Below, piece by piece: positions 2,659 through 61,841 of a stretch of DNA of 64,000 nt. The position numbers and the translations under genes are program-made. The first letter of the stretch is position 1; every line of letters starts with the position of its first letter. Below the pieces are notes generated by a model, which was given only the letters and a program-made list of their open reading frames with translations, searched no databases and was not told the origin of the DNA. This DNA comes from Siphonodentalium dalli (Eukaryota; Mollusca; Scaphopoda; Gadilida; Siphonodentaliidae), in the NCBI GenBank assembly GCA_032622095.1, contig CP136061.1, forward strand, positions 126,058,754-126,122,753, given 5' to 3'.

Positions 2659-3171
2659 CCAGCTAACGCCACATCTGTGTGTTAATTAATTACCGGTGAC
2701 TGAGTGTCGAACATAAACTTGTGTTCGGCTTTTTTTACAAAATATCGAATAAAACACTTTTTATTGGCCCAAACTCCACAAATCTTCGTATAGTAATAGT
2801 GTGAACATGAATACATATGCCTATGAACTTTATTCGTGAAATTTCCCATTATTTGGACTTGTGTTCGGTTATGTTCGGTTATGTTCGGTTGTGTTCGGCT
2901 TTTATGAGCTCCCCCTCACCAGAGTCATGGCCATTTATTGGATTTATCATGGGGGGTATTTTACCACGCCCTATCGATGCTCTTATTTAATATATCTGAT
3001 TAGCAAAATGATATACGCTATACCAAAACTGTTAAGTTACACCTTGCTGAGACAAAGTCAATATAGTGGGCCTATCAGATGATCGAGACGCCCCCCCCCC
3101 CCCTTCAGACGCCGGATTCAGGGTCTGTTATATGACGTATTCCGGACATCGGATCCGTATGCGTATATATA
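2659..3171. repeat. Direct repeat, copy 2 (about 513 bp)
   Basis: Partner of 151-665 in the same orientation. Leaving the repeat, the sequence changes abruptly to AGGGCGGACGCC, whereas copy 1 continues into ATATATGTTTGATGG, so the right boundary is sharp. The left boundary is CCAGCTAACGCC in both copies. Confidence 0.9.
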
Positions 3172-39800: not shown

Positions 39801-42800
39801 AGATCTGTTTCAGGTAATAACTTTGAACGGGAATTTTGCTAATATAAATGAGATATTCACTACGAAATTTGCTTTATTGCGACCAAACAGTTGTACGGGT
39901 TAATATTCTAAATGGCCACTGACTGTACTTACACGGTTCCTTCCCTTTCGCTGGACGCAACAACATAAAACTTTGAACCTGCGGTCCCAGCTCTCTTCGT
40001 ATGCGCGCATGGCTTTTCTGAAAGAGAAAGTTTTATCATCGCGCTGAAATTAGCATTTGCACAAGACACATAGCTATACTACATTAAATATACTACAAAC
40101 ATATGTGCTGCATAGTGGTATATGTAGAAGTTGAAATGTGACAAACATCCACTATAATTGTTATCTGTATATTATTACAGGAGATATTTTTTGTCTAACC
40201 ATTGACAAAATTCCAAAGCCTCAGAAACATGAAATGTTTGCCAAATTCTAAATTCCTATTCTCTTCTATTTACTGAAGTGTCAAATTAAATTATAATGAT
40301 TTTTTTCTGGTGTTTTTTTTTATATTAAATAGTAATGTTATAACTCGGTAAATCAAAATTTTAACTGTTACAGTTAGGTATTTATAACTAGGATATTAGC
40401 TTGTATATAATTGATATGATAATGTGTACATGTTTAATTTAAATATATGTTTAATTTAAATATGTATTTGTTTTACAGTCGGTCAAAAGCTCAGAGCTTG
40501 TGTTTGTATAATGTTGTTTACCTCCGATTGTTAAATAACTGTTTACATGAGTCGTATTTGTTTCTGCACCAAAATCTGCCAAAAAAGTATCTTATCTTAT
40601 TACGTCCTACGGATGTATACTGCCAGGCTGTTCTGGCCGTGCCAATGGAGATATGTGGCTATTATCTACGAACAATTCGATAAGGAAAATATGAAACTTT
40701 TAAATGTAAATGTACATAACGCTACATGCGTGGACATGAGTATAATTATGCTAATCAGAGAATGCCTTCCATTCCACTGATTGACTATCGGTACATGGAC
40801 ACACATATCATTCATTCGTAACCAAGATGCAGGGTAGCATTCAATTATTCCACGATATAATGCATTATCGCCAGTGGAAGTGGACAGATGCATGTAGTTA
40901 GTGCTGTGAAGCTTGGAAAGTATAAATTTATAAGTGATTCTTCGGGGAAATCGATAAAGTGATTTTCATTAATGAGTCTAAAATCTGTCTCATAGCACGG
41001 CAAAGTTGGAGACAACAGGCTGGGTAATGAAAGAAAGATAATTTGCCTGTCGTTGCCGAGTGACAATTCTTTCTGAAACAAGCCAATATGAAAAGCCGAC
41101 ATGTTTCCCTTGAAGGCAATAGCTGCAGTATTTAGATTTTATACGGTCGGATCTTTTTTCAACCGTGTTTGTCCAAATAGTTTCGAACGTTGGTGTTAGT
41201 CGAGTTCGCTAATTAGAGAGGTTTCGCAAACTCACAGTATACAAATAATAAGTAATATGTCGTTCATATCCTAGCATAATATGGCCATTTTACGACCTAT
41301 ATCCTGCAACATTGCCAGGCAAATTTCCAGCATATGAACCTACCCTAAAAGCTAGTTGATGCCAACGCATGACAAGCCATACACTGCCAATATGATATAT
41401 GCTCTGATGTCTGCAATATTTTTGTTAGCGTGTGTATAATAATATATAAGTTGTTGATTGAAGAGTTAGTGATATATAGAATGTGGCTAGATCTATGCTA
41501 CGACACTTCGGACTTCGCCGTTTGTATCACGTTAATATATAGATATAATCATAATATTATGATTATATCTATATATTAACGTGATACAAACGGCGAAGTC
41601 CGAAGTGTCGTATGTTACTAAAGAGATAATTTATATGTGTATATACGGTGTTATAAAATAGTTCATCTCCCATTATTCGATTTCGTTATGAATTATACCC
41701 TATAGACGCACAGAAGTGCTGTGACAACGAAAAACAATGTAACGGCTATCGTCTTTATTTCTAAACAAGACCATATGAATGCACCCGTTTCACTGATTAT
41801 AATATAGAAGAAGGTATGAATAACATTTAAGGGATGGACGTTTAACCGCCAGATCATGTGTATTTACTATCGGATAATAACAAAACCAACCACAACAAAA
41901 GCAACCAAAACAAGAAGACACAAACATTATGCACCAATGCTATTGCAATCAGATGCTGTTTTGTCGCATGTTTCGTTCATTAAGATTAACCTACTGTATT
42001 ATAAATGTATGCACGTATTTTTGTCTCCACAACTTTATCGCGAGTGCCCAGGTATTTATTTTGTTTTGCAATGTTCAACTTACTAAAAAAATAATTGCAT
42101 ATATACTTTTGCATTCCATCGATCAGTATCCAAGATTTCACTGTCAAATATATGAATACTTCATGTCCGCACAACATAAACTGCTGGCACAAACTTCTTG
42201 CAGATCAGTAAGAGAGCATACCAGTAACGTCGCTGTTTCACTAATGATGGGTATATTCTGTCGTGCATTCAGAGTTGTTATGACTCAAATGCAGAAAACC
42301 AACTAGTGAAAGATAACATTAATTTTCTTAACAACTTTTGCCCCACCAACATCACAGAAATTAAGCAAGACCCACCAACATAATACATATTAGGAGGGCC
42401 ACTTTACCAGGGGCGAAACTACACGTATGCCACTGTGTGCATTCACAAAATTAATGTCCATAGAGTTGATATTTTTGCAAATAATCAAAGTTGCTGTATA
42501 TACAGTAATGCTCTAATTAATCGACATCTTAACCACAGCAGAATTATGGGTAACGTTTCAGGATTTAGTCGGAAATATGGCTTGTTGCCATTCATCGGAA
42601 AGCTCTCGGCGAGAGCTGTCCGGTGAATGGCAACAAGCCATATTTCCGACTAAATCCTGAAAAGTTACCCATAAATTTTGCTGTGGTTAAGAGGTCGATT
42701 AATTAGAGCATTTAAGAAATATATACACGGTGTAGAGGTGTGTATGGTCAAGTTGTACCACAAAAAACTGATTGTAGGACGACGCGTAGCGGAGTCCTAC

Positions 42801-47100: not shown

Positions 47101-50100
47101 TAATGGTTCCACGAGCGGTAGCAAGATCGATATCCAATGTACTGTATTATTGGGTTTAGGAATGTTCGATAAATGACTCAGACGCTAAATACATATTTGC
47201 AGTACAATGCTTTCATCGGTACTCGCGGTACCTTGTGCGCAATATCCTTACAAAATGTTGATCTTATCACAGAATATATCGAATAACTATGTGTGTATCA
47301 TCTATGTCACACATGCATGGTCAACTTACTATCGATATATTCAATCTATAATCGAATATTATTTTTATGTATGCGTACGACAGTCTATTTTTGGGAATAC
47401 CTAAATTACGTTGGGTCGATAATTCACTTCGATGCACTGTGATATTTATATGCATGGCTGAATTAATTTGCGCCCACAACGGACTGTTTGTAATATTTCT
47501 GCTTAAATATTAGAATAACTCTTTTCCCAAAATGTTACAAAATTAAAGGTCATAATGTGTTTATAGCCAGGTGTTATAGTAACAGAGACTTCGGTTATAC
47601 TATCACATATAGATGTAACTTATATGAAGCTGACAATTGAAATTTGAAAATTTGAAACATTCCCGCTTATTATGTGGTTATACCTTCACGTGCAGGGCCC
47701 TCTCCAAGAATCAGATGTCACATGGACTGGCGCACAGCACTAGATGATAAAATATTACTACATGGTAGCGTTCCTTTAACGGATTTACCGGGTCACGTGC
47801 ATCAGTCCCAAGAGGTCAATGTGAAATACAAACGGGTGGACCCAGGATATGACCGCTCGGGCAAACTACACTAAATTTGTCCTCTTTTGACAAAATTGAA
47901 CTGAACTGAATGCCGCCTTCTTGTAGATACAATGCGCACGCACGTGTATCAGTATCTGGTCTCTTAATTCTTATGTTTCTGTGGTTGCAGAGTCCTGGGG
48001 TCGGATTACTAATAACTTATATACGTACAAATGAAAATAATAGGTTAATAACACTAGGCCGCTTAATTCTATCGATATTTAGCGAAGATAAAGTATTATT
48101 GATAAGAATCGCATCGTATGAAAGCAGAAGTTTTATAGTATTAGCCCTCGAATAGTCCATCATAGTAAATAATGTCGATATCTTACACGACAGCATGTCT
48201 GGTTTTCTGGAGTTGAGACGCACCACTGTCCATTAAGAAGAAACGAATTGGTTTGGAATACATTGTTTTAGTAAAAAGACACGACAGCTAATAGCAAATA
48301 GTTTTCCTGCGAGATTCGACCGGTGCCAATAACTTAATTTGCATACCGAATATACCAGCAACATATGATGATAGATGGCCGATGTCACACCACACGAGAA
48401 CAAACAAAAAGAAGACCCGACATGTTTTATCGTCTCAGTAGATCAAACAACGCAAATTCATCTTAACCCTGTCATAATTTGTCTCGTCTTGGGGCTTTAG
48501 ACAGTAACTGTTGTCGGGGACGTAGCTGGATTATCCCCGTTGTGGGGGGGGGGGGGTCACATTGGCATTTTCAAGTACATTCCACCTTGATTCAGACCGA
48601 AATGTTCAAGTTCGAGAAATTCCATATTTGTACACATGTGCACCTAAGGTTAGACAATTTCCAAGTTATGCAAACGGGCCAGCTCGGGGTGTGTCTTTTT
48701 ACCGGATTCCGGATCCCGGATTTCGACCCGGATTTAGGTGTCTTTTTACCGGATTTCGACCCGGATTCGGGTATGAATTTCATGCTTGTTTTATCACACA
48801 TTTAACCCATTAAAAGCCGTTTCTGACACGATTAAACCAATATAGGGCTGTCGTGCTCATTCAACCCGATTAAGCGTATTTAAAGGTACATATCGTGCCC
48901 GGATCAGCATACTTCTTATTTTTTCATATAGACACGACGGTTGGATTGATTTTACGTGATCATGATGGCATTTAAGGGAACACACCATGTCCGGATCCGA
49001 ATTAATTATCTCAAGGTAGATATCATGTCCGGATCCGGTTTTTCTCTCTCTCTCAAGATTTTTTCCATATAAATTATCGTCTTTTTGAGGTACACACCAT
49101 GTGCGGAACCGAATTAATTTCCACGTATTTACTGATAATATTTAAAGGTACAAATTATGCCCGGATCCGGATTTTTCTTCTTATAAAGTAATGCTTATTT
49201 AATACAATAAATGTAAACTGAGTCGCGTGGAACTAGGTTATAGATGTTGATGTTTAGGTCAGATCATTCCCGGATTCGGATACGAATAGTTCTTTTCTAT
49301 TTCATATAAATAGTCAAGTATTTAATACATTAAATGGCAGCTGAGCCACGCGGAACTCAGTTTATTTGGAAACGGTGAACATGGCGCTTTGATTGATTTC
49401 ACGCGAGAATGAGCCCATTTACAGACAAACTTTATGCCCGGATCTGGATCCGGATTTTATGTGTCTTTTTCTAATTTCGACCCGAACCCTGATCTCAATT
49501 TTATGTTTATTATAACCCATGTTTAACACATTAAAAGACATTTCAGACCCGCGAAAACATGGCACAGGTTGCGTTTAACAGTAATATCATTCGGATTGAA
49601 ATAAATTGACTTGCTTTTGTGAAGATTTTTTGTTCTCCAGCCCACAAAAAAAACCTGATGCAGTTTAAATGGTTTATTGTTTTAGTTCGAGTATAAACGA
49701 TCATATTTGTGATACTAGTAGTATTACTATTGTAAATTCGATATTTAAGCCGGTTTAAGTGAGATAGATGTACGACTTGTATTAAGCGTTTTATGTCACG
49801 ACGCCCGAATCGTTATAAAAACACGGATAGCATATTCATCCCGTTGCAGCCAGCTACAGTTTATACGGTGATTATCTAGTTTAAAGGCACAGACCATGCC
49901 CGGATCCGGTTTAAAAAAAAATCTCCATAAAATTAACGCCTATTTAATATATTAAATGTCAGCTGAGTTAAGAGGAAGTTAAAGTTGATTTTGAGATGTT
50001 AGACCCGGCTGTTGGATTTATTTCACGAATCACGATCACGATGATCGCATTTAAAGGTGCATACCATGCACGGATCCGAATTAATTATCGCGTATTTATT

Positions 50101-53100
50101 AATCATTTTTAAAGGCACAGATTATGCCCGGATCCCGATTGTTCTCCTTTCACTTATAAATTAACTCCTATTTTATACATTAAATGCCAGCGGAGCCACG
50201 TGGAACCAGGTTCCACGCGACGCAGTTTACATTTATTGTATTAAATAAGCATTACTTTATAAGAAGAAAAATCCGGATCCTGGCATAATCTGTACCTTTA
50301 AATATTATCAGTAAATACGTGGAAATTAATTCGGTTCCGCACATGGTGTGTACCTTTAAATGCGATAATCATTCCGTGAAATCAATCCAACAGCCTAGTA
50401 TAACGTCTCAAAATAAACTTATAACTTTGTTCCACGTGACATTTAATATATCAAAAAGACGATAATTTATATGGCAAAAAGAGAGAGAAAAAAACCGGAT
50501 CCGGACATGATATCTACCTTTAAATATGATCAATACTTACGAGATAATTAATTCGGATCCGGACATGGTGTGTTCCCTTAAATGCCATCATGATCACGTA
50601 AAATCAATCCAACCGCCGTGTCTATATGAACAAATAAGAAGTATGCTGATCCGGGCACGATATGTACCTTTAAATACGCTTAATCGGGTTGAATGAGCAC
50701 GACAGCCCTATATTGGTTTAATCGTGTCAGAAACGGCTTTTAATGGGTTAAATGTGTGATAAAACAAGCATGAAATTCATACCCGAATCCGGGTCGAAAT
50801 CCGGTAAAAAGACACCTAAATCCGGGTCGAAATCCGGGATCCGGAATCCGGTAAAAAGACACACCCGCCAGCTCGCCCCAGGGCCAACTCATTCCAGTCG
50901 AACTGGGCCAGCTCGTCCCAGGGGATAATGTATTATTAAAGTTGTTTATCGTTGGTGTCTTTTTTCTGTTGTTGTTATTGTAGCGTCTCTGGCCTCCATG
51001 TGTTGTTGCATAAGCCAGAACATGTAATGGTCACAATGGGGGGGGGGTTGGGGTCTCGAAAAAAATCCAGTATACGAGGTTCGGTTCCGATTGCAAAAGT
51101 ACTATCATTCCATATTTATCCTTGTCGACCACACCCATCGATAACATATTTAATATTCAGAATGTGAAAACAGTTCATTATTGTTATTTATGAATTCGCC
51201 GGTTTCTCGTTCAAACCAACTAATGTGATATACTGTAAACAAACGTGCCTAAAGTAAATTATGGCCAATTCAGTCAAAACATAGAAAAATAAGCAATTTC
51301 TTTTTTAATCTAAGAGCAAAAGAAGACATTTCATACTAAATACTGGACCTAACATATTTTATCCTTTCCGGAGATGAAGCAACGTAAATTCATCTGAACC
51401 ATATGTCTTACTTTGGCCCGTCTGGCGGCATTAATTCTCACTTTGAAGACATGTCGTTGTCAGAGATATGGCTAGAGGATCTCCGTTCTACTTTAGAATT
51501 TTTAACTGCACCCCCCCCCCCCACATTGATGAAGACCGAAATGTCCAAGTCCGATAAATTCCGTATGCACACACCTATAAGGTTGAAAAATTTCCAAATG
51601 ACAGAAAATTTGAAAATATGCGACTTTTTATCTTAAAGCCAAACAAACAATTTCACACTAAACATATTTAATCATGTCAGGAGACATAACGTAAATTCAT
51701 TCTGAACCATGTCATAATTTAGCTCGTCTCGCGGCATAAGTTCTCACTATGAAGACAGTTGTCCTATATGATTGCGAGAGTGTGGAGTGTGTATGGAATT
51801 TGTCTGACTACTATCGATTCTTCTCTCAGAGAATTGCCAATATAAGCCAATATAACTAATTTTGTATACACCTTTGGTTGGATTGAAGGGGAATTCTGAA
51901 TGAAATTTGAGCAAACCACCGAGATAAAATATATAATATTAAATATCACAGAAAATTGTAAATAAAAAATCAGAATATAACGTGGGGAGTACTCGATTGA
52001 AATGCCATAGACTGACATATACATTTAGTTACAGAATTTTAGTTCGACGTGAGCTCTTTTATTCCACCAATTAACTTCCAATCTATCGAGTCCAACCTTT
52101 GACATTACATTATGTCTGTATAGGAAATGAAATTTGCGAGGGGAAACGATTTTCTTCAAGAATAATCTAAACTATTTGGGGCCAATTGAGAAGGAAATAT
52201 TATATGTTCAAGACATTCGATGGGTGACAACTTGAAACGATTTTCTTCAAGAATAATCTACACCATTGGGGCCAGTTGAGAAGGAACTATTATGTTCAAG
52301 ATTTTTTGATGGGTGACAAACATAAACACATCAAAAAGTACGTCACCCCTAACATTTACGAGGTGATCAGCAGATGTGGTAGTTAACCCTTTACCCAACA
52401 GAATGGCCCTGTGCCAATGCATTCTCTTATATATGCGAGTCGACCATAGGTCGCCTCGCATATATAAGAGAATGCATTGGCTTAACACATTAAAAATTAT
52501 AAAATTGTTAAAGAATGTAAGAAAAAATGGTAAAAAGTGTTTAAAAAAGATTTTTGTTAGGCCAATGCATTCTCTTATATATGTGAGGCGACCTATGGTC
52601 GACTCGCATATATAAGAGAATGCATTGGCACAGGGCATAACTATAACCATCACAATGTGGTCAATGAGCCGGTTCCAATGATATCCATATTTGTATGGTT
52701 TTATTGAGACAGACCGAAGATATTTTAGGCTGTTGAAGCTTTATTTGGCCGGTTTTGGCCGGTTTGTTGGGTAAAGGGTTAAATTCAATGAAACTTGAGG
52801 AAACTAATCTATTATGTGATCAACGTATCTTGTTGTCATGAATTTGATAAGTGATTTCATGTCGTGAATGATCATAAATTTAATAGGAAGAGTAAACTTT
52901 CCAACAATCTCAAAATCACTGGCCGGATTCGTCATCTCCAGATTAACCCTTTTATGGCGGGAGCTGCACTGGTGCAGCATTAAAAACCCTGTACCAGTGC
53001 ATTATCTTATATATGCGAGTCTCACGTAGGGAGCCTTGCATATATAAGAGAATGCACTGGCTTACATGGTCAAGATAAATATTGTTAGGCCAATGCATTT

Positions 53101-55683
53101 TCGTATATATGCGAGGATCCCTATGGGCGACTCGCATATATAAGATAATGCATTGGCACAGAGTTTTCGCAAAATTTTAGAAAACTCCAGTCATGGAAGG
53201 GTTAAAGATCCGAGTTTATCAATTTCGGGATAAATAAAATTCGACAAATGCATGTACATGTATGTGCATCTGTCGTCCAGGAAAGAAGACAACGCTCCGT
53301 TTTTTTCTAAAAATAAAAGGCAAAATTCTACTGTTTCGAAAAAAATTGTCATTTTCGCGGTGTTTTGCTAATTTTATAAAAAAGTCAGTGTCTGTATGAA
53401 ATGTTCAAGAATATATATATTTTTGAAAATATTAATAATGGGTGCGCTTTATCATAGTCGATTTGCAACAATTAATACAACCAGTATTAAATTATTTCGC
53501 CATGTATATATTTCTAAATGTTTGACACACATAATGGCTTTTCCTGGATGTTTAGTTTATCCTATCACCGCAAAAATGACAACTTTATAATAAAAAAAAA
53601 CGTTATATATACGTTACAGGTAAGGTACATGACCACTTGACCAAGGGTGAGATAATTAAATTCGGTCGCCTTAGACTGTCCTCAATGAGTGTTTTCAGAG
53701 TATTTAAAGTCCATATATATTATACAGGTTATTGAATTGTTTAATGCATAAAGCCACCATTTAAGGTGGAACATGCCACGTACTTATCGGCCCATGGAAT
53801 GTGACTAATACCGGATTATATAATGTCACGAATCTCTACTATGACTATGATTATTTATTCATAACTCAATATAACATATATTTTTACACAATTAATGTAT
53901 ACAGACAATGAGTTATTGGGGATGGCATAATCTGTAAAGGCTGTCTTCCTGCCGTCCCCAAAACCGGAGGATATAAAGAAATCATAGAATTATGTTAATT
54001 ACTTAAATATATATAGAATGTTTACATTTGTTTCGAAAAGAAGAAACATTCAAGTAATAATATTCGTCCATCGCTCAGCTAATAAGATATAATGTATAAT
54101 ATATCAGTGCAATGTTTTGAGGAGATGAGGTCATAGTATAGGTCGTTCATGATTGAGGTTCGCAATGAGATGAAATGGAATAAGATGGGGGATGGTAAAT
54201 ACTTTTTTTTTTTAGGGTATTAATTTTTAGGGAATCATTATTCAACTATTACTATATTGGTAAACTAAATTATGAGGATTACTCATGAGCACAGTCAGGA
54301 CATCTATTGTGTGTACATTTTGGTTTCATTTGGTAAGTAGATAGGATCGTTCGAGAATAGTCGTTTTTAAACATTGGTCTTGTTGGGAGATCTTTAAGTC
54401 TATCTTCTAAATGGTTCCATATATTTGGAAAATTATGTTCCGGTAAATCTTCTGAGAAAACACTCTAGCTATTCACTTAGAGATAACAGCCCATCCGTTC
54501 AAAACATGTGATCTTGTTGTTGTTCTGATGGAGAACTTTATAACATTGAACAAACAACGCAGGGAATATATTTCTTAGTTATCACGTGTTCCTTAATCTA
54601 TTACACAGTCGGGTTTGGTCCCAGCTCGAGATTGCACGAGTTCTGTGAGTCGATATCGCAATAACCATTAATTCCCGGGAGAAATTCCATGATTGTAAGC
54701 GACAATGCAAATCAAAATCGGCTCAAAAAACAACAAAGTTACATAAAACTTGTAATTTCCAGATAGGGCCTTAATGTACCATGAAATTCATACGTTCCTA
54801 TCGAACGTCGAAATAGGGTCACACACCTGAAATGTATTACCTGCACTGGTTTATTTTCAATGTTATAAACTTCTCTGTCAGAAAATCAAAAAGTTGTCAG
54901 GGTTTGAAGCGTGAGGTATGATCTCTACGGGCGTAGCCAGATTAGAGATTCATGACATTCATCGACTATCGGATTAATTTTAGACAGGACATATATGCTA
55001 GCTGGACAGGTGACTCAAATAAAAATATCAGACATAGTCAAACAACATTGAGTGTAATAGCATGTATATGTGTAACATGCAAGTGTGTATCAACATACAA
55101 TAACTAATTGCATCTGTTTTTGATAAATATATTGAATGAATAGTTTTATTACAATATTAGTCCATTCACATATACAAACACTACTCGTGCCTCTAGAATG
55201 AGATCCAACCCTTTATAAACTAAAACATCATTGACGTGTATTTATCCAATAGGAAATGTTCAGATAATAAGTTGAGTTTATTATCAAAACATTTCCCTCA
55301 ATAAGTAGGACTCCTTCTGCACTTTTATTTATCTGACGGCTGATTATATTACCTGTGCATCCTTGCAAATCAATAATAGATCATTCCGATGTACACTTTT
55401 AACTGAATCATTGGAAGAGTCCATTTAGTATATAAAGGGTCAATCTACACTTTGACACACGTTGCACCATATATATCACACAAGATGGCGCTGATGTGAC
55501 CAATGTAAACTTACCTCTGCCGCCAATTCCGTCGGGTGCTCCCGGAATGTTTGTAAGCCCGTCTGTGATTCACACTCTCTTGATATCTCTTCATGACAAC
55601 CCATTTACGCCCTGCCGAGTCGAACGTGCACCATAATGATATGATGATGATGAAAAGAATCAACCAATTTGTGACGACTATAC
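11329..55683 (-). CDS. DAGLA: sn-1-specific diacylglycerol lipase, 14 exons seen, 5' end missing
   Basis: Whole-locus entry; exons are listed separately. DAGL hydrolyses diacylglycerol at the sn-1 position to give 2-arachidonoylglycerol, at the plasma membrane with the active site on the cytoplasmic side. I joined 14 exons (55515-55683, 39933-40017, 37839-37958, 33059-33252, 30984-31128, 28653-28736, 25664-25741, 23627-23707, 22442-22584, 21776-21844, 17657-17729, 16225-16433, 13719-13851, 11329-12822). All introns are GT-AG and all phases agree, giving 1,024 residues. Visible residues: last membrane helix about 1-20, lipase core about 95-530 with Ser333, Asp385 and His516, tail 528-1024. The Ser-Asp spacing of 52 residues equals that of human DAGL alpha (Ser472, Asp524). 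The start codon and first three helices (roughly 110-140 residues) are not in any exon I recognise. The long tail favours a DAGLA-like over a DAGLB-like form, while the linker near residues 50-90 reads closest to the insect enzyme, so this may be a pre-duplication orthologue. Confidence 0.93.
11590..11829 (-). repeat. Coding minisatellite, three copies of about 81 bp, in the DAGL tail
   Basis: The unit encodes (M/L)TP(L/S)V-x-EVHTQ-(x)5-PxK-xPVRNAS-like text: MTPSVQTQHSNDAQPKDPVQ, then MTPLVTEVHTQHCNETPPKT, then LTPLVAEVHTQQHSDEAPLK. On the plus strand the same units show as GGAGTCA...TGTTGTGTATGCACTTC blocks near 11640, 11725 and 11800. In-frame repeat, so copy number can vary without breaking the protein. 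Confidence 0.85.
12823..13718 (-). other. DAGL intron before the last exon
   Basis: Contains a G tract at 13009-13022. Near 13030-13090 an ATAATAA...TTATTATCTGAACATTTCCT block is shared with 35318-35485 and 55207-55345. Otherwise nothing recognised. Confidence 0.6.
13719..13851 (-). CDS. DAGLA: DAGL exon with catalytic His
   Basis: Acceptor CTTACCAG, then codons FICGRNGPVYQAIWADTTNF and DEVLISPTMINDHMPDNVLE; donor AAAAG|GTTCGT, a weak donor apart from GT. The His of NDHMPD (codon 13752-13754) aligns with the catalytic His of the family, human DAGL alpha His650 (established knowledge). Enters in phase with a Gly codon split across the upstream intron and leaves in phase 0 into VLIDDG of the last exon. 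Confidence 0.92.
14065..14350 (-). mobile_element. Interspersed repeat family E (copy 1)
   Basis: The reverse complement contains GGAACAGAAAAGAGCGTT, TTTCACTTCTGTGC, AAGTATTTTTCAGAG and TATCAATATTTCGTGTATT, all in the same order at 36890-37200 on the plus strand. A diverged third copy lies at 62100-62340. No protein recognised. Confidence 0.7.
14525..14700 (+). mobile_element. Fragment of the 18.3-19.7 kb foldback family
   Basis: TTTAAAGACACGGATGGC..., TGCTGTTAATATATTCACAT and TTGTTCTTATACTAGTACC match the left inner part of 18830-19020, in the same orientation. Cut off after TGTGTAAACGAAGGCC. Confidence 0.6.
15634..16086. mobile_element. TTAA-flanked twin-hairpin MITE, copy 1 (left end degenerate)
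   Basis: Two palindromes with arms of about 30 bp (TGCCAATGCATTATCTTATA.../...AGAGAATGCATTGG at 15634-15706 and 15971-16040) flank a T-rich core built of AATTTTT/CATTTTT steps. The right end GGAAGCTCCCGTCATCAAAG GGTTAA closes with TTAA. Compare complete copies at 32750-32974, 52383-52782 and 52943-53205. In the intron between exons 16225-16433 and 13719-13851. Confidence 0.75.
16225..16433 (-). CDS. DAGLA: DAGL exon: loop between catalytic Asp and His
   Basis: Acceptor TTTTCCAG, then WKIITHSLLCCCPEKYDIEA; ends in HIIHIVRK-type text (PPGTIIHIVRKHQDESG) and donor GTACGT. The PLFPPGTIIHIV block corresponds to the conserved PLYPPGRIIH of the family. The Arg usually seen after PPG is Thr here. 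The segment with three adjacent Cys and NRDEEVLIGTRGRDVT lies where the family has its variable regulatory loop. The Cys cluster could be acylated (inference). Confidence 0.92.
16434..17656 (-). other. DAGL intron with C tracts and GGAAAATTTCC motifs
   Basis: C tracts at 16519-16532, 16859-16872 and 17060-17077, plus four or more palindromic GTTGGAAAATTTCCAAC-like motifs between 16879 and 17046. Part of the same text (C tract, then GACATT/AAATTCC and TTTCCAA blocks) recurs at 48540-48665 and 51510-51620, so this is another dispersed repeat. Confidence 0.55.
17657..17729 (-). CDS. DAGLA: DAGL exon after the catalytic Asp
   Basis: Acceptor TTTCCAG, then G completing Arg, then IGLSQMESLRTDLINVIKAS DSPK; donor GTAAGG. 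Matches the RIGL-x-QxExLRxDLxxxIxxS stretch that follows the catalytic Asp in DAGL enzymes. Amphipathic helix on the lipase surface (inference from the pattern). Confidence 0.92.
17875..18240 (-). mobile_element. Interspersed repeat family D (copy 1)
   Basis: The reverse complement of this stretch matches 34490-34880 and 37370-37780: CTCAGAG.., a GACCAAATT...GATGAAG block, GGATAACTCTAA, ACTATAGTTGACA and TAATCGATT. An (AAC)n microsatellite at 17928-17943 corresponds to (GTT)n at 37687-37715, so the simple repeat is part of the element. Confidence 0.7.
18335..19735. mobile_element. Foldback element about 1.4 kb with nested inverted arms
   Basis: Outer arms: ACCGATTACATTCATAGCCA near 18354 pairs with the GACTACGAATGTGATCGGTG region near 19670; both include TTTTCAAATCGATC. 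Middle arms: GCAGCGCTAACAAGATCT at 18738 pairs with AGATCTTGTTAGCGCTGC at 19537, followed by the CACTAACATTGTT pairing. Inner core 18830-19380 carries TTTAAAG...GGCGGCG-type ends and repeats of AAAGAGCGTTTAT. The core recurs inverted at 31250-31800. No coding frame. Confidence 0.7.
19736..21279 (-). other. DAGL intron sequence, no gene recognised
   Basis: Near 20030-20350 are repeated GATACGATA/CACGATAC motifs. Open frames at 20769-21118 have no recognisable domain. Nothing else supported. Confidence 0.5.
21280..21552. mobile_element. TTAA-flanked twin-hairpin MITE, copy 2 (right end eroded)
   Basis: The left end TTAACTCTTTCATGACGGGA has a partial duplication of ATGACGGGAGC. It carries two hairpins with the TATATGCGAG/CTCGCATAT-type core (21353-21412 and 21445-21512). 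The right end still reads GGTTTTCGCAAACTTTCAGG and AAGCTCCAGTC but lacks the AAAGGGTTAA terminus. Confidence 0.65.
21776..21844 (-). CDS. DAGLA: DAGL exon with catalytic Asp
   Basis: Acceptor TTTTTTCAG, then T completing Ser, then DICVEETKSYITSVVVAKDV VP, and a split Arg codon before donor GTGAGT. Asp of AKDVVPR (codon 21787-21789) aligns with the catalytic Asp in the family's LGKDxVPR motif. Here Leu-Gly is Val-Ala, a mild change outside the catalytic residue. Confidence 0.93.
22442..22584 (-). CDS. DAGLA: DAGL exon with nucleophile serine
   Basis: Acceptor TTTTCTAAG, then DADVKNYDVVLVGHSLGAGT AAILAILMKQRFPTLHCYSY SPPGGLL; donor GTGAGG. GHSLGAG is the nucleophile elbow of lipase class 3 enzymes. 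The serine codon is 22540-22542 and corresponds to human DAGL alpha Ser472. CYSYSPPGGLLS is the next diagnostic DAGL block. Confidence 0.96.
22978..23527. mobile_element. Foldback/hairpin element, about 548 bp
   Basis: Left arm (about 22978-23232) starts TTTTATTTGGATTCCACTAT and the right arm (about 23270-23525) ends with its inverse, CCACTATACG region mirrored as CGTATAGTGGAATCCAAAT. Arms are about 255 bp with few mismatches and a loop near 37 bp. Internal landmarks pair in order: GTTGATCAACTTG, GATCTTTCACGA, CATAGCATGGATT, GTATACGGTATA, GTTAAAAACGAA. It lies wholly in the intron between exons 23627-23707 and 22442-22584, ending about 100 nt before the upstream exon's donor. Confidence 0.85.
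23627..23707 (-). CDS. DAGLA: DAGL exon GMVQAAVYIDKK
   Basis: Acceptor TTTCACAG, then GMVQAAVYIDKKIEEQKILE HAFSRVT; donor GTAAGT. Corresponds to the conserved GHKGM-x-x-A-x-YI helix of DAGL that follows the HK of the preceding exon. Phase 0 on both sides. Confidence 0.93.
24222..25510 (-). mobile_element. Non-LTR retrotransposon (LINE) 3' fragment, defective
   Basis: Two overlapping minus-strand frames (25510 to 24662, and 24677 to 24222) are parts of one protein split by a frameshift near 24700-24720; the second frame reads RRFQGIQERALVDKLKSEHL across the break. The first holds the C-terminal half of a reverse transcriptase: FRHLLFAVDLVLLSE is motif C with the first Asp of the usual ADD changed to Val (codon 25397-25399). 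After it come the thumb (YLGIKF) and KLFDKLIKPIMLYGCEIW, typical of LINE proteins. The second ends in LCSVCNSKQIESEYHFILEC, a Cys-His knuckle found at the C terminus of several LINE clades. The first part of RT and any ORF1 are absent. Same strand as DAGL, in its intron. Dead copy. Confidence 0.88.
25511..25547. repeat. 36-bp block repeated at 26424-26458
   Basis: TTTATGATATTCCGATATGC through TGGTTGTCGTTTTA occurs here and, with one change, at 26424-26458. Here it abuts a TTAAGGGCATTACT end like that of the hairpin MITE at 26188-26395, suggesting repeated nested insertion at the LINE edge. Confidence 0.6.
25664..25741 (-). CDS. DAGLA: DAGL exon DVLTDLNAEAEV
   Basis: Acceptor TTTCACCAG, then DVLTDLNAEAEVIPLTPEKT DWFGHK; donor GTACGT. 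The DVLTDL block and DWxGHK are diagnostic of DAGL. Family members usually have Leu before GHK; here it is Phe. Confidence 0.94.
25980..26530. repeat. Nested inverted segments around a hairpin MITE
   Basis: AAAAGACACACATGAT at 25998 and AAAAGACACACGGATATC at 26034 pair with GAGATCATGTGTGTCTTTTT at 26470 and GATATCATGTGTGTCTTG at 26499. AATGCCCATTCCAATTCCG at 26137 is the inverse of 25490-25512 in the LINE. The hairpin MITE 26188-26395 sits in the middle. Confidence 0.55.
26188..26395. mobile_element. Hairpin MITE CAGTAATGCYCTAA, copy 1
   Basis: Ends TACAGTAATGCCCTAAATAA and (inverted) TACAGTAATGCCCTTAATAA, followed on both arms by TCGACTCCTTAACC, CAGAATTAT and GGATTTAGTCG blocks, so nearly the whole 208 bp folds on itself. 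TA at each end fits a Tc1/mariner-type target. Other copies at 38033-38145 and 42505-42713. Confidence 0.8.
26531..28390 (-). other. DAGL intron sequence, no exon recognised
   Basis: No recognisable element or exon. Minus frame 26960-27217 and plus frames 27292-27474 and 28091-28366 look like chance. Confidence 0.5.
28394..28453 (-). CDS. Candidate 60-nt cassette exon of DAGL
   Basis: On the minus strand a TTTTTGCAAG acceptor is followed by 60 open nucleotides (NKNFIGFSKLRVMVLDNETL) and a perfect GTAAGT donor. Both flanking DAGL exons (28653-28736 ending LSLQ, 25664-25741 starting DVLTDL) are phase 0, so inclusion would add exactly 20 residues without breaking frame. The insert would fall between VRGTLSLQ and DVLTDL, a contiguous block in known DAGLs, so the constitutive form must skip it. 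The polypyrimidine tract is short. Could be coincidence. Confidence 0.33.
28653..28736 (-). CDS. DAGLA: DAGL exon IGETPFYVAIDH
   Basis: Acceptor CTATTTCGCAG, then IGETPFYVAIDHKYKKVVIC VRGTLSLQ; donor GTAATG. ETPFYVA-D and VVIxxRGTLS are hallmark DAGL strands at the start of the alpha/beta-hydrolase core. Phase 0 on both sides. Confidence 0.95.
28737..29724 (-). other. DAGL intron sequence, no exon recognised
   Basis: A G tract lies at 29250-29259. Open frames at 28785-28997 and 29264-29629 have no recognisable domain and no supporting splice sites. Confidence 0.5.
29725..30145. mobile_element. Long-TIR MITE, complete copy C
   Basis: Left arm ATAGTGTTTCTGTCATTTGA through GTGAGAATTTAGTGA; right arm GCCCTCTGGGGACCTCATTC, TGCAAATGACAGACACACTA and TTTCAAGCC. 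Internal AAAATGCATAATCCATGTGA and AACATCACCAACTTCAAG match 7966-8935. In the intron between exons 30984-31128 and 28653-28736. Confidence 0.75.
30984..31128 (-). CDS. DAGLA: DAGL exon: cysteine-rich DNCCHCNYAAL
   Basis: Acceptor TTTCCGTAG, then T completing Ser, then CCCIHCCAKRPKYSELIGDN CCHCNYAALKKLSGLKNVDI IYVTYHVD; donor GTGAGT. DNCC-x-CN-x-AAL and IIYVTYH-D are strongly conserved in DAGL. The two Cys clusters lie on the linker before the first core strand. In animals this Cys-rich stretch is a likely membrane-contact/acylation segment (inference). Confidence 0.94.
31245..31800 (-). mobile_element. Inverted copy of the 18.83-19.38 kb core
   Basis: Reverse complement of 18830-19380 over about 540 bp. 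Landmarks: AACGCTCTTTATTATTTCCA, AACGCTCTTTATGTTTACCA, TATCCGGATCTAAACAAAAG, and ends GGCACGGGCGGCGTTCGTTG and CCGCCCGTATCTTTAAA. The two ends are imperfect TIRs with TTTAAAG at the tips, so this core can stand alone. Confidence 0.8.
32250..32665 (+). mobile_element. Interspersed repeat family C (copy 1)
   Basis: AACACTCCGGTAGGGTGATC, ATTCTTATATATTAATTAAA, AGTTTATCGCCGA, GTAAATATTTACAATTGAGC and TTCTATGGAGTGGTA occur in the same order at 35505-35885. An inverted copy lies at 58885-59135. The open frame 32474-32680 is within the element and has no known domain. Confidence 0.75.
32750..32974. mobile_element. TTAA-flanked twin-hairpin MITE, copy 3 (complete)
   Basis: Ends TTAACCCTTCCACGACGG and (inverted right end) TTAACCCTTTCATGACGGGA. 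A TTAA target followed by CCC at each tip is the signature of piggyBac-type transposition (established knowledge). One full hairpin (GCCAATGCATCCTCTTATAT ... AGAGAATACATTGGC, 32812-32873) and one reduced one. 225 bp, no coding capacity. Confidence 0.8.
33059..33252 (-). CDS. DAGLA: DAGL exon YQYLSGVPVTPTTRFLEL
   Basis: Acceptor GTCTTGCAG, then GKSRVYQYLSGVPVTPTTRF and on to VVHYMKFALAAYGWPATVRG, ending in a split Ser codon at donor GTAAGC. LSGxPVT...YMxFALAAYGWP is diagnostic of DAGL. The junction with the upstream exon (LLRV|GKSR) appears 5-6 residues shorter than relatives, so a microexon of about 15-18 nt may be missing from this reconstruction. Confidence 0.94.
33226..34037. repeat. Tandem duplication of about 400 bp including an exon start
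   Basis: Unit 1 (33226-33642) starts inside the DAGL exon at ACAAATACTGATACACTCTG and runs into the upstream intron. Unit 2 (33643-34037) starts ACAAATACTGATATACTATG. Shared blocks in order: GCAATCAAATG, CACTTCAACA, GTACGAACCAG, ATATGTGTGATT, CAGAAGTTTCAGTTTG, TTTTGTG-type, GTCCCCATACA and GGAGATCCAGGCT. Identity roughly 75-80 percent by eye. Confidence 0.85.
33643..33681 (-). pseudogene. Duplicated 5' piece of a DAGL exon, acceptor lost
   Basis: The minus strand reads CTGCCTTGCTGTGCGCGAGC and then ATAGTATATCAGTATTTGTA. It matches the true exon start CTGTCTTGCAG|GGCAAGAGCA GAGTGTATCAGTATTTGTC, but the acceptor AG has become TG. Only about 28 nt of exon were copied, so it cannot act as an exon by itself. 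Confidence 0.75.
34490..34880 (+). mobile_element. Interspersed repeat family D (copy 2)
   Basis: ATTCGAGTCGAGGAACCCAT, TCAAAGCTCAGAG, GGTCTGGGACCAAATTTGGG, GATGAAGGTGGATAACTCTA and ACTATAGTTGACAATGGTTA are shared with 37370-37780, and inverted with 17875-18240. Confidence 0.75.
35318..35485 (+). repeat. Small dispersed repeat with AGGAAATGTTCAGAT
   Basis: The AACCCTTT start, CATTGACGAGTA, ATAGGAAATGTTCAGATA, the inverted TTTATCTGAACATTT and CCTTCTG blocks recur at 55207-55345, and partly at 13030-13090. Contains a short hairpin. Confidence 0.6.
35505..35885 (+). mobile_element. Interspersed repeat family C (copy 2)
   Basis: Parallel copy of 32250-32665 with the same order of blocks, ending CATAATATGTCTTTAA. 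Roughly 80 percent identical by eye. Confidence 0.75.
36890..37200 (+). mobile_element. Interspersed repeat family E (copy 2)
   Basis: Shares AACAGAAAAGAGCGTTTCGT, TTTCACTTCTGTGCG, GGTTGCGACAATGGCAAGTA and TATCAATATTTCGTGTATT with the inverted copy at 14065-14350. The 24-bp text from GGTTGCGACAATGGCAAGTA onward also appears inside the hairpin MITE at 38033-38145, so that MITE has captured a piece of this repeat. The open frame 36881-37180 is within the repeat. Confidence 0.7.
37370..37785 (+). mobile_element. Interspersed repeat family D (copy 3), with (GTT)n
   Basis: Same blocks as 34490-34880. The (GTT)n tract at 37687-37730 replaces the short A/T run of copy 2. It ends about 55 nt before the donor side of the exon 37839-37958. 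Confidence 0.75.
37839..37958 (-). CDS. DAGLA: DAGL exon LFTDFFRDLDVVPSDVVAGL
   Basis: Acceptor TTCTACTTACAG, then NSITEVAQLFTDFFRDLDVV and PSDVVAGLVLLRHHQKLLRV; donor GTAAGT. FFRDLDxVPSDxxAGLxLL is the signature of the cytoplasmic segment that leads into the lipase core of all DAGLs. 120 nt, phase 0 on both sides. Confidence 0.95.
38011..38230. repeat. Intron segment duplicated at 39048-39150, with MITE insertion
   Basis: GGTCTCAC-TGTGGTGTACAG, then (after the MITE) TTGGAATTCCCAAGTGCCCG CTCCCTCGAACCATACTGA. At 39048-39150 the same two halves are joined directly (GTGTACAGCTTGGAATTTC), so the second copy shows the state without the MITE. Confidence 0.8.
38033..38145. mobile_element. Hairpin MITE CAGTAATGCYCTAA, copy 2 (short)
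   Basis: TAATGCTCTAATTAATCGAC and its inverse at 38126-38145 bound a short interior with GGTTGCGACAATGGCAAGTA, shared with 37022. It starts 75 nt upstream of the acceptor of exon 37839-37958, on the branch-point side. Confidence 0.8.
38285..39030. repeat. Array of TTAGTCA / TGACTAA motifs
   Basis: About 15 half-sites in two clusters (38290-38445 and 38915-39022). Many are arranged as TTAGTCA-(AT-rich 1-3)-TGACTAA, for example TTAGTCATAATGACTAAGG, TTAGTCACAATGACTAG and TTAGTCACTATGACTAA. Others are single GTTAGTCAAAGTGAC. Spacing is irregular (about 20-40 bp), unlike a simple tandem repeat. TGACTAA resembles AP-1 half-site pairs. No function can be assigned. Confidence 0.75.
38456..38517. repeat. 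Perfect 28-bp-arm hairpin
   Basis: ACAATTTCCGCCAAATTACA to its exact inverse TGTAATTTGGCGGAAATTGT, with TGTTCGCA/TGCGAACA inner stem and a 6-nt TTGTCA loop. It separates the two TTAGTCA clusters. Confidence 0.9.
39933..40017 (-). CDS. DAGLA: DAGL exon KAMRAYEESWDRRFKVLCCC
   Basis: Acceptor TCTCTTTCAG, then A completing Arg, then KAMRAYEESWDRRFKVLCCC VQRKGRNR; donor GTAAGT. Matches the conserved RQRK-x-MRAY-x-x-SWD...LLxCC cytoplasmic linker after the fourth membrane helix. The triple Cys is a possible acylation site (inference). Confidence 0.93.
40018..41498 (-). other. Large DAGL intron, no gene recognised
   Basis: The stretch between the exon and the palindrome has overlapping short open frames (40447-41119) with no domain or splice support. 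Confidence 0.5.
41499..41612. mobile_element. Perfect 114-bp palindrome, likely Tc1/mariner-type MITE
   Basis: 57-bp arms with no mismatch and no loop: TACGACACTTCGGACTTCGC ... ATAATC|ATAAT|ATTAT ... GCGAAGTCCGAAGTGTCGTA. Ends in TA on both sides, and the flanks differ (GATCTATGC and TGTTACTA). Either a very young foldback insertion or a fold-back sequencing artefact. Confidence 0.85.
42505..42713. mobile_element. Hairpin MITE CAGTAATGCYCTAA, copy 3
   Basis: AGTAATGCTCTAATTAATCG ... CGATTAATTAGAGCATT with arms of about 95 bp including AACCACAGCAGAATTATGGG, GGATTTAGTCGGAAATATGG, CTTGTTGCCATTCA. Near-complete stem with a short CTCTCGGCGAGAG loop. Confidence 0.85.
42714..42862. mobile_element. 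Second hairpin element directly abutting copy 3
   Basis: Arms AAATATATACACGGTGTAGA... GTGTATGGTCAAGTTGTACC ACAAAAAA and the inverse at 42805-42860. Inner hairpin ATTGTAGGACGAC/ GGAGTCCTACAAT. A partial relative (GTGGTACAATT / AATTGTACCAC) lies at 43617-43660. Confidence 0.75.
42863..44100 (-). other. DAGL intron sequence, no gene recognised
   Basis: Holds only the small GTACCAC hairpin at 43617-43660. Open frames 43520-44043 lack domains. Confidence 0.5.
44101..44176. repeat. (GAT)n microsatellite
   Basis: GATGGTGGTGATGATGATG run continuing to GATGCTGCTGTTGATGATG. It produces artificial poly-Asp, poly-Met and poly-Ile frames on the two strands. Confidence 0.95.
44177..45164 (-). other. DAGL intron sequence, no gene recognised
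   Basis: Nothing supported beyond unique AT-rich DNA. Confidence 0.5.
45165..45525. mobile_element. Long-TIR MITE, complete copy D
   Basis: Left end CAAGCCTTGAAATAATGTGT CTGTCAATTGCGG and right end CGAATGACAGACACATGGAC TATTTCAAGGCTTG are inverted copies, which fixes the outer tips of the family at CAAGCCTTGAAATA. Interior shares ACATGCATACTCGAGGTGAC-like text with the other copies. Confidence 0.8.
45526..48429 (-). other. DAGL intron sequence, no gene recognised
   Basis: Several short plus frames (45714-46033, 47207-47404, 47674-47874, 47910-48155) show no domain. 47674-47874 resembles ordinary coding composition but has no recognisable family or splice support. Confidence 0.45.
48430..48677 (+). 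repeat. Dispersed repeat with G tract, target of the foldback insertion
   Basis: AACGCAAATTCATCTTAACC ... GTCATAATTTGTCTCGTCT ... G tract 48546-48556 ... GACCGAAATGTTCAAGTTCG matches 51370-51640 and 51665-51760. The big foldback element sits inside this repeat. Confidence 0.65.
48678..48686. repeat. 9-bp target-site duplication, left
   Basis: GCCAGCTCG, repeated exactly at 50867-50875 on the other side of the element. Confidence 0.9.
48687..50866. mobile_element. Complete Mutator-like foldback element, 2,180 bp, non-coding
   Basis: Begins GGGTGTGTCTTTTTACCGGA and ends with its exact inverse. The left arm (48687 to about 49245) and right arm (about 50215-50866) match over 550-650 bp at very high identity; the left arm has lost roughly 30 and 110 bp relative to the right (near 49005 and 49085). 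Flanked by a perfect 9-bp direct duplication, the length typical of the Mutator superfamily (established knowledge), which also often has long TIRs. No frame longer than about 100 codons; those seen (48479-48813) lie in the arms. Contains about 14 copies of a module AAAGGTACANANCATGYCCG GATCCG. Inserted in the 15.5-kb DAGL intron. Confidence 0.88.
50867..50875. repeat. 9-bp target-site duplication, right
   Basis: GCCAGCTCG, identical to 48678-48686. Confidence 0.9.
50876..52382. repeat. Dispersed repeats with C/G tracts
   Basis: GCCAGCTCG-like text recurs imperfectly just after the element (GGGCCAGCTCGTCCCAGG at 50906). 51370-51640 and 51665-51760 are two parallel units (CGTAAATTCAT-TGAACCAT, GGCATTAATTCTCACTTTGA, GAAGACA). 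A duplication of about 65 bp (CGATTTTCTTCAAGAATAAT CTA) lies at 52147 and 52238. No gene recognised. Confidence 0.55.
52383..52782. mobile_element. TTAA-flanked twin-hairpin MITE, copy 4 (complete, 400 bp)
   Basis: Perfect 18-bp terminal inverted repeat TTAACCCTTTACCCAACA. Two long hairpins (52411-52480 and 52560-52630), each with GCCAATGCATTCTCTTATAT arms, flank an A-rich core. The tip sequence differs from that of copies 3 and 5 after CCCTTT, so this is a sister subfamily sharing the inner hairpins. Confidence 0.88.
52943..53205. mobile_element. TTAA-flanked twin-hairpin MITE, copy 5 (complete, 263 bp)
   Basis: Ends TTAACCCTTTTATGGCGGGA and (inverted) TTAACCCTTCCATGACTGGA. Two hairpins at 52993-53062 and 53090-53158. 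Lies only 160 bp from copy 4. Confidence 0.85.
53206..55514 (-). other. DAGL intron sequence, no gene recognised
   Basis: AT-rich. A T tract lies at 54205-54213, and the small dispersed repeat of 35318 recurs at 55207-55345. Nothing else supported. Confidence 0.5.
55515..55683 (-). CDS. DAGLA: DAGL exon with the last N-terminal membrane helix (5'-most exon seen)
   Basis: Acceptor TTCTTTTGACAG, then a split Gly codon and IVVTNWLILFIIIISLWCTF DSAGRKWVVMKRYQ...RNWRQR; donor GTAAGT. One hydrophobic helix of about 20 residues, then WCTFDSAGRxWVxMKRYQ and NWRQR, as in the junction between helix 4 and the cytoplasmic linker of DAGL. The codon is split at its 5' edge, so at least one more upstream exon must exist. 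Confidence 0.94.
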
Positions 55684-56171
55684 CTGTCAAAAGAAAATAA
55701 TAAAATACTTGTAGTCTTCTGTGTTACTGGACACCATTAGCGTAATGAATACATGTGTAGACAGAACGCAACGCGGAATAGGACTTACAAAAAAGCCACA
55801 ATAGGCTTGTTGTCTCATCCCATTCCAATCGGTGTCAGACCGGTTTTCCGAAGACCTATTACTACGAAGGCCCACAACTCCGAAGACCCGATTCTCCGAC
55901 GGTCCACAACTCCGAAGACCCGATTCTCCGACGGCCCATAACTCCGAAGACCCGATTCTCCGACGGCCCGTAACTCCGAAGATCCGATTCTCCGAAAGCC
56001 CATAACTCCGAAGGGCCGATTCTCCGAAGACCTATAACTCCGAAGACCTATAACTCCGAAGGCCCGATTCTCCGACGGCCCATAACTCCGAAGGTCCGAT
56101 TCTCCGAAGGTCCGATTCTCCGAAGATTTTGTTTTATCGGGGTATTATCGTTTACTAAATAGTGTACAGTC

Positions 56172-56363
56172 CAGTGGCGAAGCCAAGGGGTCCCAAAATT
56201 CCCACTGCCCCCATTAAACCTCTACTTGCTATTTCAGACAATAAGGGCCCCTACCAAAACATGTCCAATGTCATGTAAACGCCCGGAAATCGTTCATGGG
56301 GCATCAACATATTCAAACTTTTCCTATTGCCCCCACCTAAATGGGAATCCTGGCCCGCCACTG
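56172..56363. mobile_element. hAT-like MITE 1
   Basis: CAGTGGCGAAGCC ... GGCCCGCCACTG. CAGTGGCG/CGCCACTG tips are typical of hAT transposons (established knowledge). No clear 8-bp duplication is visible because the flanks belong to the foldback arms. Confidence 0.6.
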
Positions 56364-56516
56364 ACTATACACCAGATACTATAACGTTACGTTGGCCCAT
56401 GAGATGCCAGAGTAAAATGTACAGGGGTGAACGGGGAAGAACTTGTCGCCCCTGTGCATGGTATAGGCTACTCTGACATTCTTGCAGCGTTTCGTTATAA
56501 TATACCCGGTGCACAC

Positions 56517-56803
56517 CAGTGGCGGAGCCATGGTTCCCATTTAGGGGTGCACATTAATTAGCATATGTGGGGGATATGTGGGGGATATATCATGCATATG
56601 ATATGCCGAAAGCATATCACGAAGGCCTGATTTGGGGAGCGCATACGTGGGAGGGGTCGCCCCCAATCGTTGGTCCGGGGGCTCCCCTGGGCAGGAACAC
56701 TGTGAATATTTGAATGCCTAGGAGGGATTTCCTGACGTTTACATGACATTTGACACGTTTTTTGGGGGCGGTCTTCTCTAGGGCCCCATTGACCCCGCCA
56801 CTG
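56517..56803. mobile_element. hAT-like MITE 2
   Basis: CAGTGGCGGAGCCATGG ... GACCCCGCCACTG, 287 bp, same tips as MITE 1. Open frames 56558-56835 lie within it and mean nothing. Confidence 0.6.
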
Positions 56804-57075
56804 GACTGTACCTTATTTAATAAGCGATAAAACATGATCTTCGGAGAATCGGACCTTCGGAGAATCGGCCCTTCGGAGTTATAGACCTTCGGAGTTATGG
56901 GCGTTCGGAGTTATAGGCCTTCGGAGTTATGGGCTTTCGGAGTTATGGGTCTTCGGAGTTATGGGATTTCGGAGAATCGGGACTTCGGAGTTATGGGCTT
57001 TCGGAGAATCGGGGCGTCGGAGAATCTGACCTTCGGAGAATCGGACCTTCGGAGTTATGGGTCTTCGGAAAAACG

Positions 57076-61159: not shown

Positions 61160-61369
61160 ATAAAATGATAAAAATTGTTAAAGAATGTAAGAAAAAAATG
61201 ATTAAAGAATGTGAGAAAAATTGATAACAAATGATAAAAAAAATTGTTAAGACAATGCATTATCTTGTATATGCAAGGCGACATATGGTCGACTCGCATA
61301 TATAAGAGAATGCATTGGCACAGAGTATTTAATGTTGTACCAGTGCAGCTCCCACAATGAAAGGGTTAA
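61160..61369. mobile_element. TTAA-flanked twin-hairpin MITE, copy 6 (left part missing)
   Basis: A-rich core (AAAATTGTTAAAGAATGTAAG repeated), one hairpin at 61253-61318, and a right end AGTGCAGCTCCCACAATGAA AGGGTTAA. Confidence 0.7.
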
Positions 61370-61599: not shown

Positions 61600-61841
61600 T
61601 TTATTACATTCATTACAGTTCATTATCGATTTTTATCTTTTTTTTGTATTCTTTAATAATGTTTTATCATTATTAATTACATTTTTTAATAATTATAAAA
61701 CATAATATAAAATTTGTTAAGCCATTTGATGCCTTCTCTTTTATATGCGACGAGACCTGTGGTCGACTCGCATATATAAGAGAATGCATTGGCACAGGGT
61801 TTTCGCAAAAATTGAGGAAGTTCCCGCCATCAAAGGGTTAA
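61600..61841. mobile_element. TTAA-flanked twin-hairpin MITE, copy 7 (left part missing)
   Basis: T-rich core (61620-61700), one hairpin at 61722-61795, and a right end GAGGAAGTTCCCGCCATCAA AGGGTTAA. Confidence 0.7.

Follow-up and report, generated by a model that had tools for sequence, protein, structure and literature searches.

A complete foldback element, probably of Mutator type, with internally repeated arms in a predicted DAGL intron of the scaphopod Siphonodentalium dalli

The stretch analysed here, hereafter the window, comprises 64,000 nucleotides of the scaphopod mollusc Siphonodentalium dalli (GenBank assembly GCA_032622095.1, contig CP136061.1, positions 126,058,754 to 126,122,753 of the forward strand) and carries, at window positions 48687-50866, a 2180-bp foldback element lying between exons of a DAGL gene on the minus strand. 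In a tblastn comparison, run without composition correction and with an approximate human DAGLA sequence as probe, DAGL exons were found in order along the minus strand, among others at 55553-55684 (E 9.3e-5), ~39945-40020 (E 0.016, a weak match), 37842-37958 (E 6.1e-10) and 22444-22572 (E 2.6e-14). A class 3 lipase domain was recognised by Pfam in the frame 22438-22722 (E 1.9e-7), and no exon in the window was found for the first ~136 residues of the probe. The exon on the upstream side of the element in gene direction was delimited at 55515-55683 (minus strand) and the probable next one at 39933-40017 (minus strand), each being flanked by AG and GTAAGT; the tblastn match of the latter is weak, and its alignment also crosses non-exon sequence. 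The predicted intron between these two exons, 15,497 bp long as set by the AG/GTAAGT borders, contains the element. Even if the exon at 39933-40017 were wrong, that at 37842-37958 would still bracket the element, which judging by exon order is within a DAGL intron, as the initial annotation of this DNA had proposed. Further matches of the DAGL probe at 59160, 49288, 62403, 53757, 47962 and 49360 (E 2.7-8), two of which lie in the element, were rejected as noise.

The initial annotation had described a complete foldback at this position, and its bounds proved correct to the base, both ends being intact and mirror-symmetric. The left arm (48687-49239, plus strand, 553 bp, tip GGGTGTGTCTTTTTACC) is mirrored by the right arm (50204-50866, minus strand, 663 bp), and the two are identical at 538 of 547 aligned bases (98.4%) with 122 gap columns; the final bases of the match in the left arm, 49234-49239, are uncertain. 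The arms had been called nearly identical, which is true of the aligned bases, apart from three indels: 20 bp and 96 bp are missing from the left arm, and 6 bp from the right arm. The exact inversion of the tips, for which 17 bp had been quoted, is real and extends over the outermost 235 bp, the match breaking at the first base outside the element. Differences between the arms number 0/235 in these outer and 9/312 in the inner aligned positions (Fisher p 0.012), or 7/306 in the inner ones (p 0.021) when two differences at the inner edge are set aside; the split was chosen from the data, and the pattern could reflect conversion biased towards the ends, selection acting on them, or chance. The observed/expected ratio of CpG is 1.48 in the element and 0.95 in the window.

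Directly outside the left tip, at 48678-48686, lies the 9-mer GCCAGCTCG, and an identical 9-mer adjoins the right tip at 50867-50875. When direct repeats of 1-15 bp were tried at the element boundary, no length but 9 bp (and, trivially, 1 bp) matched and, because an outward shift of the boundary also breaks the inverted repeat at once, the length of the duplication is taken to be 9 bp. A 9-mer is shared in the geometry of the element by 39 of 2,000,000 random position pairs of the window. Of the 46 maximal exact inverted-repeat pairs of the window (length at least 17 bp, separation 100-5000 bp), a single one, which is this element, is abutted by a direct repeat of at least 7 bp, and none of the other 45 is. 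A third copy of GCCAGCTCG, at 50907, which the initial annotation had not noted, could have explained the duplication away, as it stands within a local GC-rich repeat. This neighbouring repeat (50905-50923, GGGCCAGCTCGTCCCAGGG) is a paralogue of the joined empty site: the flanks of the element, when joined, give GGGCCAGCTCGCCCCAGGG, in agreement with it at 18/19 bases (GGGCCAGCTCG[C/T]CCCAGGG). The suffix CCCAGGG is missing from the left copy of the 9-mer and the prefix GG from the right copy, which is exactly the separation predicted by insertion with duplication. Since joining the flanks restores the 18/19 match, the copies of GCCAGCTCG flanking the element are best read, from their sequence context, as a target-site duplication (TSD). 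The initial annotation had read them in the same way, and abutment, the 1/46 control and the empty-site match all bear it out. A diverged host repeat, about 76-79% alike between copies, is found on both sides of the element (48414-48664, 51346-51597 and 51661-51757); it was considered as an empty site (at 48414, 51346 and 51661) and rejected, as by eye the repeat does not run through the target.

Four stop-to-stop open reading frames (ORFs) of at least 60 amino acids lie wholly inside the element, the longest of 94 amino acids, and none of the four gave a Pfam match at E<=1, so that the absence of a transposase stated in the initial annotation is upheld. Three longer frames running in from the flanks (48467-48805, 48526-48813 and 50740-51030) do not match Pfam either. 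The element is too small to encode a transposase and hence is non-autonomous.

Neither arm is a plain terminal inverted repeat, since both are internally repeated. A 17-bp tip core, GTGTCTTTTTACCGGAT, occurs twice per arm at a spacing of 47 bp (the second copy of the left arm being at 48738) and has no exact copy elsewhere in the window; with up to 3 mismatches it gives six matches in the window, four of them exact and inside the element, and two elsewhere, with 3 mismatches. A 29-bp motif, TTTAAAGGTACACACCATGTCCGGATCCG, was counted 14 times in the window when up to 9 mismatches were allowed, and every copy falls within the element; five mirrored copies stand in each outer arm, at 48879, 48971, 49009, 49083 and 49141 on the left and at 50274, 50332, 50496, 50554 and 50646 on the right. 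Five mononucleotide-shuffled windows contained 0 copies each; as the motif consensus derives from copies in the element itself, these counts describe confinement and are no independent measure of significance. Similarly, CCGGATCC is found eight times inside the element and 0 times elsewhere in the window. Long inverted arms of internal repeats around a middle define the foldback structural class, and they are seen here as 14 motif copies, mirrored modules and a unique middle of 311 bp. From the tip inwards, the copies of the 29-bp motif are spaced by 92, 58, 164 and 58 bp in the right arm and by 92, 38, 74 and 58 bp in the left arm. Spacings of 170 and 58 bp recur in an inner array (49880, 50050 and 50108), and for this reason the 20-bp and 96-bp pieces were probably lost from the left arm.

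Inwards of the left arm follows a degenerate arm module in left-arm orientation (49240-49436, plus strand), of which 49319-49403 matches 49941-50027 at 73.6% over 87 columns. Next to it lies a decayed internal copy of the tip domain, again in left-arm orientation (49437-49558, plus strand): in a self-comparison of the window, 49437-49551 matches 48715-48830 at 75% over 117 columns (E 6.5e-15), and extending the alignment by force to 49600 leaves 103/164 positions identical. Within the window the 311-bp middle (49559-49869) has no clear counterpart, the best non-self match having E 0.04 over 22 bases; an ORF at 49546-49812 covers 254 of its 311 bases and has no Pfam match at E<=1. Beyond the middle, an older array in left-arm orientation (49870-50207, plus strand) forms the inner partner of the right arm, 244/320 aligned bases (76.2%) being identical to the reverse complement of 50208-50540; the self-comparison gives 74.4% over 671 columns for this inner inverted pair. 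Its junction is a 9+1+9 palindrome, CGTGGAACCAGGTTCCACG, and the match between left and right arms stops within about five bases of the palindrome's centre (49233-49239 on the left, 50204-50210 on the right), the point at which the right arm turns back.

Taken together, these features are most simply read as those of a non-autonomous, cut-and-paste foldback transposon, most likely moved by a transposase of the Mutator superfamily (that is, of a Mutator-like element, MULE) encoded elsewhere in the genome, a reading to which we give a probability of about 0.72. The superfamily assignment is a judgement from one target duplication and the structure of the arms. MULEs have TSDs of 8-11 bp and terminal inverted repeats (TIRs) that are often hundreds of bp long (PMC6446971); the present element has 9 bp at its one insertion and arms of 553 and 663 bp. 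Its tip starts with GGG, fitting G/C-rich MULE tips, and in arthropods the first three tip bases of most MULEs are conserved as G/C (PMC13359780). MULEs were also present across all genomes analysed in a survey that covers molluscs (PMC10294476). Of the Mutator membership claimed in the initial annotation, the length of the TSD, the long internally repeated arms and the G/C-rich tip thus fit. Membership would also call for a MULE-type DDE transposase in the element or in a copy sharing its ends; neither a transposase nor a second copy was found in the window.

Several points weigh against this assignment. All 46 stop-to-stop ORFs of at least 90 amino acids in the window were scanned against Pfam (cut-offs of E 0.01, 1 and 0.1; shorter ones outside the element were scanned in part), and none belongs to a transposase family; with neither a transposase nor a second copy seen in the window, superfamily and family stay at the level of plausible. 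The length of the TSD is known from one insertion. The outer 114 nt fold no better than shuffled sequence (z -0.87; 39/200 shuffles fold at least as well), and a tip hairpin as cleavage signal was dropped on this ground. Some Merlin elements, too, duplicate 8-9 bp. A duplication of 9 bp also suits Rehavkus (PMC6446971), and foldback arms arose in another superfamily as well, namely in Galileo of the P superfamily (PMC3573991).

The element lies between two copies of a 9-bp target in the GC-rich repeat of the DAGL intron and, if it is indeed a Mutator-type foldback, would have been mobilised in trans by a transposase encoded elsewhere. We take both tip-core copies and all five mirrored 29-bp motifs of each arm as putative transposase-binding sites, by analogy with Galileo, where binding of the transposase to arm repeats has been demonstrated; for Foldback and Phantom elements such binding is called untested in the same paper (PMC3688188). 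The transposase would pair both ends via the arm motifs and cut just outside GGGTG/CACCC. The arms may be built of ~222-bp modules that expand, shrink and get copied between arms by recombination, as has been proposed for Galileo (PMC3573991), and such copying would be the reason why the outer arms (98.4% at aligned positions) are far more alike than the older inner modules (76%).

The older (76%) inverted pair and the decayed inner tip suggest, as far as sequence can tell, repeated rearrangement of the arms, and the element appears to hold older and younger generations of them. Tentatively, and with less than even confidence, we envisage a layered record, in which the decayed tip and the 76% palindrome are relics of a previous foldback and the entire outer arm was later renewed by copying from arm to arm, primed by a hairpin or a break. 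An element without a transposase would in this way stay mobile by rebuilding its ends, and the 9+1+9 palindrome would mark the fold-back junction. An alternative history is that only the modules are old and that the arms were made by a single later inverted duplication. From one copy, either recent insertion or ongoing homogenisation, both raised in the initial annotation, may be the cause of the arms' identity.

Several described systems resemble the element, in particular the animal foldbacks Tm1 and Tetris. Tm1 is a Mutator/Foldback of Meloidogyne, in which 45 of 53 complete elements have TSDs of 8-10 bp, 9 bp being commonest, TIRs are composites of several domains with tandem repeats, non-autonomous copies exist and the arms of one element are 93.15% alike on average (PMC3169594). 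Tm1 tips, however, are asymmetric 7-bp motifs and its repeats are of ~14 bp, whereas the element described here has symmetric tips and a ~222-bp unit with a 29-bp core. Tetris, a foldback of Drosophila virilis placed in Mutator by TSD and structure only, likewise has no conserved ORFs in its published description, TSDs of 8-10 bp and internal tandem repeats (TIR-220) in its arms (PMC4079207); its repeats also form kilobase arrays, none of which was seen in the window, and the likeness is one of description. Muta1 of Aedes aegypti, an active MULE and type-2 foldback, shares a TSD of 8-9 bp, subterminal TIR repeats and more than 300 putative non-autonomous derivatives, but it encodes a transposase, and its TIR, 145 bp long, carries repeats of 12 bp (PMC5225508). 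In the Phantom group of MULEs, TIRs of 18-613 bp and, where given, TSDs of 8-10 bp are reported (PMC6446971), and internal arm repeats have been noted (PMC3688188); Phantom is defined by its transposase, which this element lacks, and here too the likeness is one of description. The tandem-TIR MULEs of tomato and Arabidopsis carry extra internal copies of terminal sequence without a TSD of their own (PMC3310237), yet what is duplicated in these is an entire TIR of at least 50 bp, unlike the 17-bp tip core at 47-bp spacing and the single decayed inner tip domain found here. Galileo of Drosophila, outside the Mutator superfamily, has internally repeated arms of 0.5-1.2 kb that are 98-100% alike within one copy (PMC3573991, PMC3688188); it differs in having a P-type transposase and a 7-bp target duplication.

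Judged by the titles and beginnings of abstracts listed, no published foldback has this sequence and none comes from a mollusc; in two papers on mollusc satellite DNA the word "foldback" is confined to the references (PMC5139131, PMC8268682), and the former cites tandem-repeat-containing miniature inverted-repeat transposable elements of a clam (PMC3879986). Relatives in bacterial or archaeal contigs were rejected, as the tip 18-mer gave 9 matches against ~7.5 expected (257 Gb read on both strands, divided by 4^18) and all 9 match over 18-22 bp only, as chance would give. In viral contigs the tip 18-mer and two further patterns of the element had 0 matches.

The explanation that competes best, which we nevertheless regard as unlikely, is that the foldback belongs to a different superfamily in which 8-9 bp are duplicated, Rehavkus or Merlin, and that its Mutator-like arms are due to convergence. 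Merlin is defined by a TSD of 8-9 bp, with which the 9 bp found here are compatible, and by an IS1016-like transposase, but its TIRs are usually short. Rehavkus is characterised by a transposase with a PHD finger. It has TSDs of 9 bp, TIRs of 26-400 bp and a minisatellite lying before the 3' TIR; the TSD fits, and the repeats sit here in both arms and not before one TIR only. The arms of the present element are longer, however, and Rehavkus is reported from arthropods and annelids only (PMC6446971). The P superfamily also gave rise to foldback arms, and it is not favoured because Galileo duplicates 7 bp and not 9 (PMC3573991). It is very improbable that no transposon is involved at all and that an error of replication or repair produced an inverted duplication or palindrome within an intron rich in repeats, the 9-mer being there by chance as part of the local GC-rich repeat. 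Such an origin would agree with the threefold local occurrence of GCCAGCTCG and with the abundance of palindromes and inverted repeats in the window, but the 9-mer abuts both ends exactly where the inverted repeat stops at the first outside base, the other 45 inverted-repeat pairs have no abutting repeat of at least 7 bp, and the joined flanks recreate a neighbouring repeat unit. Hardly credible is an assembly artefact, either a fold-back read or a collapsed repeat, which the initial annotation had named as a possible refutation in its fold-back form: a chimeric fold-back read would also give perfect identity over 235 bp, but substitutions and three indels separate the arms, the 311-bp middle is unique in the window, a TSD is present, and the flanks continue on both sides into DAGL exons ordered on one strand.

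The window holds further repeats. A second foldback structure, at 55840-57075, has arms that consist of minisatellite repeats of 16 and 32 bp (TTCTCCGAAGGCCC-like) and complement each other at 82% over 251 nt; where exact tips of at least 8 bp were considered within 40 bp of its ends, none had a target duplication of more than 2 bp. A Fibrinogen_BP match to the repeats of 55818-56144, with E 3.9e-5 and a score of 22.6 where the cut-off is 50, is one of several weak Pfam matches taken as chance. A dispersed hairpin family with the tip AATGCATTCTCTTATATATG gives 21 matches with up to 3 mismatches, 0.02 being expected, in ten facing pairs of ~61-63 bp and one single copy (15638-16035, 21353-21511, 32805-32867, 52416-52626, 52996-53154, 61254-61316 and 61728-61790). 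Stretches at 22978-23521, 26186-26384, 41499-41612 and 42507-42712 are 83-100% identical to their own reverse complement, that at 41499-41612 being a perfect 114-bp palindrome. A direct duplication of ~515 bp (151-665 and 2659-3171) is 98.8% identical over 517 columns. The sole mobile-element domain among the window ORFs is a reverse-transcriptase fragment at 24665-25513 on the minus strand, between DAGL exons (RVT_1, E 4.1e-5; 23.8 bits, below the Pfam cut-off of 29.6).

We regard the element as a real, complete and ordinary member of the foldback/Mutator-like kind, for which no name was found and whose history of arm rearrangement is unusually readable. The known picture of foldback elements is unchanged by it. 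Being well preserved, with both ends, a clear TSD and a paralogous empty site, the element makes a good probe for the transposase of its family, and its layered arms could help to tell whether foldback arms stay alike from young insertion or from re-copying.

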